Of a stretch of DNA of 64,000 bases, positions 46,456-51,919 are shown piece after piece. Source of the stretch: Kocuria subflava (GTDB lineage Bacteria > Actinomycetota > Actinomycetes > Actinomycetales > Micrococcaceae); NCBI RefSeq assembly GCF_012163155.1, contig NZ_JAAVUN010000005.1, positions 1 through 64,000 on the forward strand, read 5' to 3'. A program made the position numbers and the translations under genes. The notes beneath the pieces are model-generated. The model was not told the origin of the DNA and ran no database searches. It saw only the letters and a program-made list of their open reading frames with translations. Position 1 is the stretch's first letter. The number at the start of each line of letters is the position of its first letter.

Positions 46456-46468
46456 GTCTCTGTTCCGC

Positions 46469-46528
46469 AACTTCCGCATGGAGAAGTGCAATCCCACATC
46501 AGGATTTGTCCTTTTCCATGCGGAAGTT
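46469..46528 (+). terminator. Terminator of the ole operon
   Basis: Arms 46469-46482 and 46515-46528 pair perfectly over 14 bp. The 32-nt loop pairs partly with itself, and TTT follows. The outline AACTT..GCATGGA...TCC.TGC..AAGTT resembles the two elements at 47600 and 48515. Confidence 0.75.
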
Positions 46529-46555
46529 TTTGTTCTGAGCAACCCTTGAAGTGAC

Positions 46556-47557
46556 ATGAAGTCAACAGCCATCAGGCGTCTGCGGGTCCGTGAGATCCAC
46601 CCTGATCCGCACGATGCACGTGCGGAGTCTCTGCGCAGGCACGGGCTGCCGTTGGTGGTGCGCCCACGGCACCGCTTGCGGACACTGGTGCCCTACACCG
46701 GCCCCGTGCTGGTGGTGCTGGGAGTGCTGCTGATGGTCCAGGCCGTCACCGCCGTGGCAACTCGCGGCGGCAGTACTCGTCAGCTGCTGATCAGCGCACT
46801 CGGGCTGGTGCTGATTCTGGCCGCGGCCCTGACCAGTTCCTGGCAGTCAGGAGTTCTACTCAACTTGATCAGTTCAGCGGTCACCGTGGCGATTGTGCTG
46901 GCCGGCGCTTATCTGGGACTGGGCGTGATCACACTGTGGGTCATGCAACGGATCCTGCAGGAGCTCACCAGCATCGGCGCCATGATCATCCGGGTGCTGC
47001 CGCTGCTCATGTTGGTCCTGCTCTTCCTGTTCTACAACTCCAACATCTGGCAGATCGCAGTCGGGATTTCCTGGCTCAATGTGGCCCTCACCGCAGCAGT
47101 CCTGGTGATCCTGGCCAACGTGCTCAACGTGGTGGTGACCGCAGACATTGTGGGCGACTCACACCTGCGCGATCATCTGCGGGATTCCACCACCCGCACC
47201 CGCTGCAGCGAACGAGCCAACATCCTTGCCGTGCCGTCCTTGGTGGTGACCATCCAGGCGGGGATCTTCAGCGTTCTGGTGTTCATCTTCCTGGTGGGCT
47301 TTGGAATGCTGTCCATTCCCGTGGCCACCATCAAACAGTGGATCTCCCAGGACCCCAACATTGTGTTCCCATGGCTGATGCCCGGCCTGCCGCTGACCCA
47401 GGAGTTGCTGAAAGTCTGTCTGGTCCTGGCTGCCTTTGCGGGCCTGAACTTTGTGGCGTCCATGGCAACAGATCAACGGCACCGCACTCTGTTCATGGAC
47501 GGCGTGCTCAATGACCTGGACCAGGGCCTGAAGGTCCGGGAGCAATACCTGCGCTGA
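46556..47557 (+). CDS. Multi-pass membrane protein of unknown function
   Basis: A 333-aa protein I do not recognise. After a basic 45-residue N-terminus come seven or eight hydrophobic segments, among them VVLGVLLMVQAVTAVA, LISALGLVLILAAALTS, IRVLPLLMLVLLFLFYN, VALTAAVLVILANVLNVVV and VLVFIFLVGFGMLSI. A polar cytoplasmic loop rich in Asp, His and Arg lies near 215-235. No transporter signature is visible. No clear ribosome-binding site precedes the ATG. It is convergent with the HARE-HTH/GIY-YIG gene; transfer or membrane-stress roles cannot be told apart. Confidence 0.7.
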   Translation: MKSTAIRRLRVREIHPDPHDARAESLRRHGLPLVVRPRHRLRTLVPYTGPVLVVLGVLLMVQAVTAVATRGGSTRQLLISALGLVLILAAALTSSWQSGVLLNLISSAVTVAIVLAGAYLGLGVITLWVMQRILQELTSIGAMIIRVLPLLMLVLLFLFYNSNIWQIAVGISWLNVALTAAVLVILANVLNVVVTADIVGDSHLRDHLRDSTTRTRCSERANILAVPSLVVTIQAGIFSVLVFIFLVGFGMLSIPVATIKQWISQDPNIVFPWLMPGLPLTQELLKVCLVLAAFAGLNFVASMATDQRHRTLFMDGVLNDLDQGLKVREQYLR

Positions 47558-47599: not shown

Positions 47600-47665
47600 G
47601 CAACTTGGGCATGGAAAAATACTCGCCGCATCAGTCTCAGCGCATTTTTCCGTGCCCAAGTTGGT
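47600..47665. repeat. 66-bp palindromic element, copy 1
   Basis: This element matches the one at 48515-48580 at 64 of 66 positions, in the same orientation and including the loop. Its 20-bp arms (47601-47620 and 47644-47663) have one mismatch and enclose a 23-nt loop. It begins 12 nt past the stop of the minus-strand gene at 47678, so it can act as its terminator and as one for the convergent membrane protein gene. Confidence 0.85.
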
Positions 47666-47677
47666 ATCAGAAGCCCA

Positions 47678-48478
47678 TCAGTCGTCTTTTAGCAGTCTCT
47701 GGAGCATGGCCCGTCGTCGCTTGCGTTCGATCTCCGGATCCGTTTGCTGGATGAACTCTGTGGCATTGAACCCGTCGCCACGCCGCCTGTTCTGCGGCGG
47801 TTCAAGGCCTTCGATCAGGAGTGCCTCCATGGTCACAACCAACATGGACACCCCGAACTGTGCACTGCTCGGGATGGCCCCTAGCCGGCCGTCCGGCCTC
47901 ACGGCTCGGACGCCGAACCAGGAAAACCGGTCCCACCGTCCGCTGAGCCGATCACGCGTGTGTTCCCACAGTCTGGGCCCCAAACGAGCCTCGGTGATCC
48001 TACCCACGTAAATGACCCGCTCTCCGGAGTAGAGAATATAGACGCCCACCTGTTCGGCAAAGTTGATGGAGTCGGATGCTTTGAGCTGGGCACCCCATAG
48101 GCTCGATCCGCGCTGTTCCCAGTCCACTTCGTCACGCCGCCAGAACATGCCAAAAGCGTTGAGAAATCCTGTCTCTGGATCAGAAGAATCCTCGGAATCC
48201 GTGGTCTCACTCTGCTGCGTTGGCGGAACCGTTGAGGCGTCTGTCGCGGCCAACTCCGATGTGCGAGATGCCAACGTGTAGACACCCCGGTCAACTCGAA
48301 CCACCTCTTCCACCAGTTGCTGGGACAGAACTGCGGCAACAGTGGCTGCGGGGGTGGCACCGGTGCTGCGTCGGTAATCGTTGTCAATGATGTGTTGGGC
48401 AATCTCGGCGTAGTGAAGCGGTCCTTCGGACTCGCTCAGAACTCTCCGGACGGCTGCTCGCCACGTCATCTCAGTCAT
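47678..48478 (-). CDS. HARE-HTH plus GIY-YIG nuclease-like protein
   Basis: A 266-aa protein. Residues about 4-72 resemble the HARE-HTH domain (TWRAAVRRVLSESEGPLHYAE to RVDRGVYTLAS). An acidic Ser/Thr linker follows. Residues about 143-232 have the GIY-YIG nuclease pattern: GVY (145-147), YVG (157-159), Arg165, His173, Glu218 and Asn230. The catalytic set appears complete. HARE-HTH domains are often joined to restriction-type nucleases, so DNA cleavage in defence or mobility is plausible but unproven. No methyltransferase is adjacent. 66-bp palindromic elements lie on both sides. Confidence 0.75.
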   Translation of the reverse strand: MTEMTWRAAVRRVLSESEGPLHYAEIAQHIIDNDYRRSTGATPAATVAAVLSQQLVEEVVRVDRGVYTLASRTSELAATDASTVPPTQQSETTDSEDSSDPETGFLNAFGMFWRRDEVDWEQRGSSLWGAQLKASDSINFAEQVGVYILYSGERVIYVGRITEARLGPRLWEHTRDRLSGRWDRFSWFGVRAVRPDGRLGAIPSSAQFGVSMLVVTMEALLIEGLEPPQNRRRGDGFNATEFIQQTDPEIERKRRRAMLQRLLKDD

Positions 48479-48514
48479 GATCTGAGCCTAACGAAACTCC
48501 TGAGGCCGCCCCCG

Positions 48515-48580
48515 GCAACTTGGGCACGGAAAAATACTCGCCGCGTCAGTCTCAGCGCATTTTTCCGTGCCCAAGTTGGT
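48515..48580. repeat. 66-bp palindromic element, copy 2
   Basis: Arms 48516-48535 and 48559-48578 are perfect over 20 bp with a 23-nt loop. The element is a direct copy of that at 47600-47665, with two substitutions. It lies just downstream of the broken LysR gene and 36 bp upstream of the HARE-HTH/GIY-YIG start. Confidence 0.85.
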
Positions 48581-48612: not shown

Positions 48613-49523
48613 TCAGTCCACAAGTTCCTGCCGGTAGCGCAGCATGGCCTCCACAAAGGATGACTGGATGGGAGACCCCTTGTGGTCGGCCCGAGTCAGC
48701 AGCAGGGCCTGGCGTTGCGCCCACGGCTGCGCGATCGGGTGCACCAGCTTGTCGGGTGCACCCAGGCGGCGGGCTGTGCCCTGCGGCAAGATGGCGGCAC
48801 CGGCACCCGTGCTGGCCACCGCATACACGGCACCCAGCGTGGGCAGGCGTACCCGATAGTCGGGCGTGACGCCCCGTTGGCTCAGATGCTCATCGATGTA
48901 ACTCTGCAGTGGAACACCCTCGGTCAGACCGATCATGGGGCCCCGGATGGCTGACTCAAACGGAGCTCCTGCGGCGTCGTCGTCGGAAACGGCACCACCG
49001 AGCAACTGGGGTGCGCACACAACGACGAGCGGGTCCGACGACAGCTGTTAGACGGACAGCCCCGGGTCCCGGGGCGGTACGGACACGACGCCCAGATCGG
49101 CGCCGCCGTCACGGACTCGCCGAGCCACCTCGGTGCTGGTGGTCTCCTCCAACGCAACGTGCAGGTCCGGGAACCGGGACATCGTGGAGGCCAGGAACTC
49201 GGTGAGGGCATCCATGGCGGAGGTGTTGCTGGCCAATCGAATGCGCCTGGACTCACCGTCCCTTTGGTGGCGCAGCTCCTGGAGAAGGTCATCTGCCTGA
49301 GCCATCATCAACCGGCCACGCTGCACGAACGCCTCCCCCGCAGGCGTGGGGGCCACACCGCCATGACCTCGTACCAGCAGCGTTACGCGAACCCCTTCTC
49401 CAGGGCAGTGATCCGGGAACTTGCTGCGGAGAGCGAGAGTCCTACGGCCTGGGCGCCGTCCGTGATGGAGCCCCGGTCCACGACGGCGACCAACAACTCC
49501 ACGTCTCGTGTCTCGATTCGCAT
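48613..49523 (-). pseudogene. Broken LysR-family regulator
   Basis: The pieces of one LysR regulator are all present but not in one frame. The HTH part (MRIETRDVELLVAVVDRGS to SRITALEKGF) ends at a stop at 49383. A one-base shift around 49385-49395 restores VTLLVRGHGGVAPTPAGEAF. An in-frame TAA at 49048-49050, in place of a sense codon, cuts the effector domain between GLSV and QLSSDPLVV. The remainder continues to 48613. The start has a good AAGGA site. It is divergent from the TSUP exporter gene and would have been its likely regulator. Two lesions make a sequencing error less likely. Confidence 0.85.
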
Positions 49524-49672
49524 GGGTGATCCTTCCGTCATCCCGAAGACCCCTTCGGATCCTAGCAAGCCAGATTCAGGCTCCACCTGCAGGGCTGAAA
49601 GGACGATACGGACGGCGCGGTGTCCTCAGACTGGCGCCCCAACGCACACATCAATGCGGAAGGAACCCGGGG

Positions 49673-50509
49673 ATGTCGATCGACTGGTTACAGGTCCTGG
49701 AATGGGCCGCGATTCTGGGTGCCTGTTTTCTGGCGGGCGGGATCAACGTGATTGTGGGCGCAGGAACCCTGGTGTCCTTCCCCATCCTGGTGTTCCTGGG
49801 CTTCCCACCATTGACCGCAACCATTGCCAACACGATCGGCATTGTCCCGGGCAGCCTGTCCGGAGTGGCGGTCTACCGGAGGGAACTGCGCACCCACATC
49901 AAGACAGTACGGATGCTGTTGCCGGCCTCCGCCATCGGAGGTGTCGCGGGAGCCACCCTGCTGCTGCACTTCTCCGCCGAAGTGTTCGCAACGGTCATCC
50001 CCTGGCTCATCGTCATCGGCACCATCCTGGTGATGGCGGGACCTGCCATCAAACGCCGCATCAGTACAGCGGGGCGGGACTCATCAGCAGGCATGGTCTC
50101 GTCAGCCGATCCGTCCATCCGCGGTGAGCCCCGGCCATTCGCCACGCGGACAGCCTTGGTTGCCTCCGTGACCGGCGCGTTCTTCCTGGGTGTTTACGGC
50201 GGCTATTTCAGCGCCGCCCAGGGCATCCTGCTCATTGCCCTGCTGGGGATCACATCGAGCCTGAGCATGCAGGAACTCAACGCGATCAAGAACCTGACCG
50301 TGGCGGCCGTCAACGTGATTGCCGCGAGTGTGTTCATCATCGTTTCCCCGGAGCTGATCTCCTGGCCCACGGTCGGCCTGATCGCCGTCGGCGCGACGTT
50401 GGGTGGCTTGGTGGGCGGCCGCTTTGCCCGCCGGCTTCCGGCGGGGTTGTTCAGGGTGTTCGTCGTGGTCATCGGTGTGGCCACCGTGGTGGTCATGACT
50501 GTCAGATGA
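49673..50509 (+). CDS. TauE/SafE-family (TSUP) sulfite/sulfonate exporter-like permease
   Basis: A 278-aa membrane protein of the TSUP family with eight predicted segments in two halves. Each half carries the family Gly-rich motif: GGINVIVGAGTLVSFPIL at the start and GVYGGYFSAAQGILLIALL in the second half. Members export sulfite, sulfoacetate or other anions; the substrate is unknown here. The ATG at 49673 follows AAGGAA. The divergent LysR gene is broken, so control may be lost. Confidence 0.88.
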   Translation: MSIDWLQVLEWAAILGACFLAGGINVIVGAGTLVSFPILVFLGFPPLTATIANTIGIVPGSLSGVAVYRRELRTHIKTVRMLLPASAIGGVAGATLLLHFSAEVFATVIPWLIVIGTILVMAGPAIKRRISTAGRDSSAGMVSSADPSIRGEPRPFATRTALVASVTGAFFLGVYGGYFSAAQGILLIALLGITSSLSMQELNAIKNLTVAAVNVIAASVFIIVSPELISWPTVGLIAVGATLGGLVGGRFARRLPAGLFRVFVVVIGVATVVVMTVR

Positions 50510-50938: not shown

Positions 50939-51919
50939 TCAGAACCGTGCGTTGCGCGGCTTCCGCTGGCAGCAGTTGCAGCGGAAGGACGAGCGGTTCA
51001 TGAACTGCTCCCGCACAATCAACCCGTCCCGGCCGGCGGCAGCACACCGCGGGCATGGATTGCCCGTCTGCCCGTAGGCGTTCAGGGACAGCGCAAAGTA
51101 CCCGGACTCACCGTTCACGTTGACGTACAGGGAGTCAAAGCTGGTGCCGCCCGCCTCCAACGCCCGGGTCATCACGTTTTGCACGGCCTCCAGCACCCGT
51201 CGGGTCTCGGTCCGGGTCAGGGTTTCCGTGGGCCGGGCGTAGTGCAGCCGCGCCTCCCACAGGGCCTCGTCCACGTAGATGTTGCCGATCCCGGACACCA
51301 ATCCCTGGTCCAGCAGCGCCCGTTTGATACCGGTTCTACGACGACGCAGGCGATCGTGCACGGCGTCGATGTCAAAGGCCGGATCCAACGGATCGCGGGC
51401 AATATGAGCGGCGTGCTGCGGGATCAAGGCGTCCCCACGCAGCCCGCGGCCCGCTGCAGCCCCATCCGCGGTGGGAACCAGGTCGTCGATGAACAACCCA
51501 CCAAAAATCCGCTGGTCCACAAACCGCAGTTCGGTCGGCAACTGATCGCCAGGATTCTCGGGGTCCGAGGCTTCGGACAGGGTCAGGCGGATGCGCAGGT
51601 GCCGGTCATCCGGCAATCCCGCGTCCTTGATGAGCATCTGCCCTGACATCCCCAGATGGGCCATGAGCGCCAGAGTGGGAGAATCGCCGGACCCCATAGA
51701 GTCAGTCTCCGGTGCACCCAACGGCATCCACAGAAACTTTCCGCGCCGCACCACGTCCAACACGCGGCACCCGGCCAGATCCTGGACAAAAGCCTCAGGG
51801 CCGTCCGTGTGGCGGCGTACCGAGCGAGCTTCCAACACCTGGACATCCTCAATCACCCGGCCGGCAACCCATTGGGCCAGGCCTCTGCGGACCACTTCCG
51901 CTTCAGGCAGTTCCGGCAC
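50939..51919 (-). CDS. mutM: Formamidopyrimidine-DNA glycosylase (Fpg/MutM)
   Basis: A 326-aa base-excision repair enzyme for 8-oxoguanine. The mature N-terminus [12 protein letters not shown] provides catalytic Pro and Glu. [18 protein letters not shown] is the helix-two-turn-helix. The C-terminal zinc finger uses CPRC and CNCC. The stretch [13 protein letters not shown] and other inserts make it longer than the usual 270-290 aa. The GTG start is 3 nt after the rnc stop, so the two are coupled. Confidence 0.95.

Follow-up and report, generated by a model that had tools for sequence, protein, structure and literature searches.

In the window, which is the whole 64,000-nucleotide stretch of Kocuria subflava DNA analysed here, a gene for a HARE-HTH/GIY-YIG protein stands between two nearly identical hairpins. 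We interpret this locus as a lone nuclease gene, its product predicted to depend on DNA modification, that was gained where a hairpin marks a gene end. We consider it likely that the hairpins are members of a small family of extragenic palindromes, restricted to this lineage, that lie mostly just 3' of genes and are likely terminator-like in both directions, and that the gene is an acquired, stand-alone endonuclease, most likely modification-sensing, inserted at a convergent gene end. On this account, the family hairpins would terminate transcription from both sides at gene ends, the nuclease gene would have arrived by horizontal transfer at a convergent gene end bearing a resident hairpin, this hairpin would have been duplicated by the gene's arrival or by later gene conversion, and the nuclease would restrict modified DNA. 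Our verdict is that the core of the locus is ordinary: extragenic palindromes of a terminator-like kind on either side of a lone nuclease gene that was probably acquired by horizontal transfer.

A dispersed family of gene-end hairpins

The two hairpins, e1 (47600-47665) and e2 (48515-48580), are 66 bp each, lie in the same orientation around one gene, and are identical at 64 of 66 positions including the loop; on this layout the preliminary description agrees with the sequence and with our repeat and ORF analysis. The stem of each is a 20-bp inverted repeat (complementary at 95% in one copy and 100% in the other) and the loop measures 23 nt; ungapped extension of the pair to 76 nt gives 93% identity. 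Hairpin e1 is located between the 3' ends of a convergent ORF (46556-47557) and of the nuclease gene, and e2 separates the start of the latter from the 3' end of a broken LysR gene. The hairpin pattern was matched twice in the window and in none of 100 shuffles, and the folding of e1 and e2 is far more stable than that of shuffled sequences (z -5.1 to -6.1). A third, diverged member of the same family is found in the window at the end of an upstream gene (46468-46531; 35.5 bits), and the corresponding junction of the congeneric genome G007, whose aligned blocks are about 68-88% identical to ours, also carries one (L103:8951-9014).

Near-exact copies of e1/e2 occupy only two places in the organism's own 3.03-Mb assembly (BLAST of 76 bp, E<=0.001), and the element was unmatched by BLAST in 98 other related genomes and absent from viral contigs (pattern search), plasmids, and phages. 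The notion of a private e1/e2 element, which this near-exact result had given, was overturned by a relaxed pattern, which uncovered further copies in G007, and by a covariance model (R1) built from nine aligned copies, two from the own genome and seven from G007. In the stem of R1, 92.8% of the pair cells are standard, a value equalled in 0 of 500 shuffles, and 5 of 17 pairs are changed on both sides, as reached in 19 of 500 shuffles; the stem carries compensatory changes. At E<=1, R1 found 12 places in the own genome (weakest E 0.01) and 21 in G007 (weakest E 0.09), with the caveat that the model is only roughly calibrated and that some weaker members rest on E values of 0.01 to 0.09. With the same threshold, each of 15 further congeneric genomes gave one to three matches, of which many could be due to chance, and stricter filters at E<=0.001 left matches in 11 of 148 genomes (the own genome included), which belong to four genera. 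In two other genera (G102: L172-L176; G130 and G085: L177-L181), the matches inspected are long hairpins of similar shape with outer arms of their own, for example ACTTGGAGTGCGAAATGCGC and TTGTGGGCATGAAAAATGCG, which suggests that palindrome families are lineage-specific.

An Rfam search was negative for the window locus; at 11 other loci its only matches fell short of the gathering score, and at six loci none reached that score. The attC site of an integron cassette was considered as well: attC core sites read RYYYAAC/GTTRRRY, and this candidate was rejected by reading the sequence of e2, which has CGGCAAC and GTTGGTG.

The placement of the family is biased toward gene ends, as a gene 3' end was located at most 120 bp away in 27 of the 32 hairpin places that were examined with a crude gene caller (these being all 12 of the own genome and 20 of the 21 in G007; a second reading of two G007 contexts left the total as it was). 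An exception to this rule is a hairpin at a divergent junction in both species (L152:1046-1110, L163:1047-1112), the flanking genes of which are by eye alanine-racemase-like and glycosyltransferase-like. Positions are also largely shared between the species: nine of the 11 hairpin junctions of the own genome carry a hairpin in G007 too, and the remaining two were unmatched among the 19 G007 loci compared.

These features resemble bidirectional intrinsic terminators in that the hairpins stand at gene ends, often convergent ones, and that several members have an A-tract, a GC stem, and a T-tract nested inside the long stem; unlike such terminators, they have the T-tract inside the stem, and their outer arms are conserved from one locus to the next. 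For e1 and e2 themselves, two features speak against termination, namely a T-run that is inside the long stem and not after it, and an inner stem that is weak relative to several other members; a simple terminator scan flagged neither hairpin. The identity of their loops is unexplained by termination itself.

As short, dispersed intergenic hairpins near gene ends, the family members are also like REP/BIME and other extragenic palindromes, and they could instead be a REP- or MITE-like transposable palindrome that has no role in termination. Copies have been gained or lost at collinear places (for example, G007 holds a near-identical pair, 92% identical and 3.8 kb apart, one member of which, at C13:113148, is faced in the own genome by a shorter gap with no hairpin detected by R1), and one junction is divergent, both as transposition would have it. 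However, the Y1_Tnp family of REP transposases was matched in neither of the two genomes, while five of 14 control genomes were positive, so that the pairing of a REP element with a RAYT is not seen here; no target-site duplication was seen by eye, and neither the gene-end bias nor the sharing of position at the nine junctions is in keeping with free transposition. The hairpins further differ from REP/BIME in being about 60-65 bp long with conserved outer arms. We therefore regard a transposable palindrome as unlikely and retain the terminator-like reading.

Hairpins are more alike within a species than between species, with a mean identity of 0.675 within versus 0.616 between, a level reached by 0 of 2000 label shuffles, whereas those that share a junction barely exceed random between-species pairs (0.642 versus 0.616; equalled in 351 of 5000 samples); this comparison covered 30 places, with e2 and one G007 near-duplicate excluded, and the derivation of R1 mainly from G007 copies is a possible source of bias in the figures. 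On these figures, copying or conversion among hairpins is probably ongoing in both species.

The empty site and the homing alternative

In G007, the distance from the left-hand ORF to mutM is 138 bp, compared with 3.38 kb in the window, and this 138-bp gap holds one hairpin and no nuclease gene. The left border of the insertion is the ORF at 46556-47557 (+ strand; 333 aa), which has no Pfam family and is membrane-protein-like by eye, and its right border is a mutM-like formamidopyrimidine-DNA glycosylase gene (50939-51919, - strand). Between them, the extra DNA of the window comprises a hairpin, the nuclease gene (47678-48478, - strand), the second hairpin, a LysR gene interrupted by an in-frame stop, and a TauE-like gene. 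The LysR-type regulator (48613-49356, - strand) is split by the stop into pieces at 48613-49020 and 49048-49356, both of which match Pfam LysR_substrate, and is apparently decaying; the TauE/SafE family permease ORF (49508-50509, + strand; match over residues 70-330) lies inside the segment missing in G007.

The dispersal of the family, its presence in G007 with no detected copy of the gene, and the single hairpin at the G007 junction are direct observations, and the last of these bears out the expectation, set down in the preliminary description, that a relative lacking the gene would have a single element at this place. The same description had allowed that the element might prove to be scattered with no link to the gene, which is what we found for the family but not for the near-exact pair. 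That pair still needs duplication or gene conversion, and its near-identity could stem either from recombination when the gene was inserted or from gene conversion afterwards. The right flank of e2 weakly resembles that of the G007 hairpin, which is suggestive only.

A filled site with two hairpins and an empty site with one is also what would be seen if a homing-type nuclease had cut the empty hairpin and repair had duplicated the hairpin around the gene, and GIY-YIG domains do occur in homing enzymes. A homing element would be expected to interrupt its target and to do so recurrently around its relatives, yet none of 85 relatives of the gene is flanked by a hairpin on each side within 500 bp (some flanks being shorter), and seven have a hairpin on one side only under the same limits. 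When 400 bp on each side of the relatives were compared for flank repeats, only L018 (13-nt direct) and L011 (16-nt inverted) exceeded the threshold besides the window's own. Moreover, the hairpin family is larger in G007, and also homogenised there, where the gene is unmatched. The G007 family lacking the gene and the lack of two-sided hairpins among the relatives together argue against cut-site and homing readings, and we consider homing very improbable. The homing cassette proposed in the preliminary description thus finds no support, the hairpins occurring in G007, where the gene is unmatched; of the roles which that description offered for the palindromes, duplicated terminators fit, while recognition or cut sites of the nuclease do not, given the family's occurrence at unrelated gene ends and the absence of relatives flanked on both sides.

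The horizontal acquisition of the gene is probable on other grounds. A single scan of genome contigs gave 387 candidate stretches from which 211 relatives were confirmed, and the best 80 of these 211, which come from many phyla, were retained. Among 98 related genomes, five had a match to the gene, which was full length in one and restricted to the C-terminal part in four. The gene's GC3 is 0.67, versus 0.80 and 0.79 in two neighbours, and in the gene neighbourhoods of its relatives no cluster was common to more than three loci. From the absence in G007, the patchy spread, the unshared neighbours, and the lower GC3, we infer that the gene was probably acquired horizontally, and in this respect the earlier proposal of a transferable gene holds.

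A predicted modification-sensing nuclease

The gene is intact and encodes a 266-aa protein, as the ORF list, Pfam, the alignment, and the structural models concur. Its N-terminal domain is a HARE-HTH winged helix (residues 4-71; 48266-48469, - strand), identified by Pfam PF05066 at 44 bits against a cut-off of 25.9 (E 3e-11) and by winged-helix fold matches over residues 1-78. The C-terminal domain (residues about 114-226; 47801-48139, - strand) was assigned to GIY-YIG by conserved residues (Y147, Y157, R169, H173, and E218, with N230 just beyond) and by fold, as Pfam reports no GIY-YIG for the window protein; scans of five relatives gave one sub-threshold GIY-YIG match (L030, E 0.054).

The hallmark of the GIY-YIG superfamily is the pair of GIY and YIG motifs together with catalytic Tyr, Arg, Glu, and Asn residues. 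The family of the window protein shows this hallmark in an alignment of 75 sequences (the window protein and 74 of 85 relatives, with 11 rows excluded, partial and broken ones among them), in which G145, Y157, G159, R169, H173, and E218 are invariant, Y147 and N230 are kept in 74, and an RWDRFSWFG stretch is strongly conserved.

A model of the full-length protein (mean pLDDT 85, pTM 0.58) gave fold matches mainly to winged helices but also to Eco29kI and UvrC, and because the winged-helix part dominated these first searches the C-terminal half was modelled separately (pLDDT 83.5, pTM 0.78). The separate model matched UvrC GIY-YIG domains, T4 EndoII, PD-T4-3, and Eco29kI. In Foldseek, UvrC GIY-YIG domains made up six of the seven top rows, but with a best E of only 0.15; VIA-align placed the model on UvrC with Z 5.5-6.1 and rmsd 2.4-2.9 (best-quoted Z 6.1, rmsd 2.5, 76 aligned), and its top row was a plant Grx domain with Z 7.1 but rmsd 9.4. 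Given the weak Foldseek E and the Grx row, the GIY-YIG case rests on the fold, the order, and the residues together, which support a predicted GIY-YIG fold. The description of the gene as a HARE-HTH/GIY-YIG nuclease, which had been put forward from the letters of the window together with a list of its ORFs, is thereby upheld by Pfam for the first domain and by the conserved residues and predicted fold for the second; the failure of structure prediction to support a GIY-YIG fold, which would have told against it, did not arise.

For the function of the protein we rely on analogy. In PMC11037411, two wH-GIY-YIG fusions are reported to cut Dam-methylated DNA, and HARE-HTH domains, which have been suggested to read adenine methylation, are held more likely to sense cytosine modification. 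From these findings a modification-dependent restriction role can be proposed for the window nuclease, which we predict to be a solitary, type IV-like restriction enzyme. As in the type IV enzymes Ahi29725I and Apa233I that are described there, an N-terminal winged-helix-type domain precedes a C-terminal GIY-YIG domain, and methyltransferases are rare as neighbours. A type II restriction-modification system would be expected to have its cognate methyltransferase next to the nuclease; none stood among the families listed for the neighbours of our relatives (25 of 105) or among the scanned neighbours in the window. The N-terminal domain of the window protein is, however, a HARE-HTH in place of the DpnI-type wH, so that modification sensing would follow by analogy only. 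The C-terminal model also aligns to PD-T4-3, a 5hmC-specific restriction enzyme (PDB 9u75; Z 4.2, rmsd 3.4, 76 aligned), with a modest Z; a PDB sequence search gave no match.

Among the neighbour ORFs of the relatives, 138 of 152 were scanned (the 14 excluded being 12 longer than 600 aa and two from L015), and the 25 of 105 families listed were mostly single housekeeping families with some one-member defence-candidate models; a PHROGs search returned no match. The window nuclease itself had no match in PADLOC or NCBIfam, and a restriction role is backed by no neighbour gene or defence-database match. As a member of a widespread family that lacks common neighbours, and with no match of its own in PADLOC or NCBIfam, the window nuclease is a good candidate for a modification-sensing restriction enzyme of an unassigned kind. 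Neither the exact HARE-HTH/GIY-YIG architecture nor these hairpins were described in the literature searched, which did not extend to Aravind and Iyer 2012 on HARE-HTH.

Islands at hairpin junctions

The window locus is not the only hairpin junction with an insertion. When 292 kb of own-genome sequence, in stretches picked because they hold hairpins, were compared with G007 using a crude gene caller, one of the two species had an insertion measuring at least 2 kb at four of nine shared hairpin junctions versus three of about 233 others (p 3e-5; 5e-4 without the window locus), and at three of five versus two of 38 when only convergent junctions were considered (p 0.0075; 0.039 without the window locus). 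This excess would be expected if the hairpins were recombination-active docking sites, where islands enter and leave by homologous recombination between hairpins and a copy is left at each end, with the nuclease gene as a passive passenger. One instance is an 8.4-kb G007 island that lies between two family hairpins, against a single hairpin at this place in the own genome; a direct repeat of 61 bp (53/61), covering half a hairpin and about 35 bp beyond, is present at its ends, and its right-hand hairpin looks chimaeric. Against docking, the numbers are small and the 2-kb threshold was set with the data already in view; a 1-kb threshold gives four of nine versus nine of 233 (p 6e-4; 0.005 without the window locus), and a cruder test of all nine hairpin junctions against convergent ones gives p 0.026 and 0.067. 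Two hairpins are present in only two of the four insertions, and the second hairpin of the window lies inside the 3.38-kb insertion and not at its right edge. We view docking as possible, if somewhat doubtful, and continue to prefer terminator-like palindromes beside an acquired nuclease.

A broader form of the idea, to which we assign a still lower probability, would have gene-end palindromes serve as recombination-active docking sites for small islands, phage-defence genes among them, that are gained and lost, while the palindromes evolve in concert, their positions being shared between species and their sequences homogenised within species. The four insertion-bearing junctions are the window locus, the 8.4-kb type ISP/AbiEii island, a 5.9-kb segment, and a 2.4-kb encapsulin/DyP peroxidase segment, and with a cargo so mixed 'defence docking' is offered only as a hypothesis. 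With this hairpin family it can be tested whether recurrent palindromes at gene ends direct the landing of islands, those with defence genes included.

The 8.4-kb island (L187:4680-13222; G007 C13:157679-166221) is of lower GC and encodes, along with AbiEii, a type ISP restriction-modification system that is divided between two ORFs. The 5.9-kb segment (L226:10128-15963; G007 C18:64128-69963), at 53% GC, lies beside a hairpin and is missing from the own junction; its ORFs have no significant Pfam families, and one has a weak LeoB-like PADLOC match. At L228:9810-11965 (G007 C12), genes for a DyP peroxidase and an encapsulin stand beside a hairpin, and the 2.4-kb segment is missing from the corresponding junction of the own genome.
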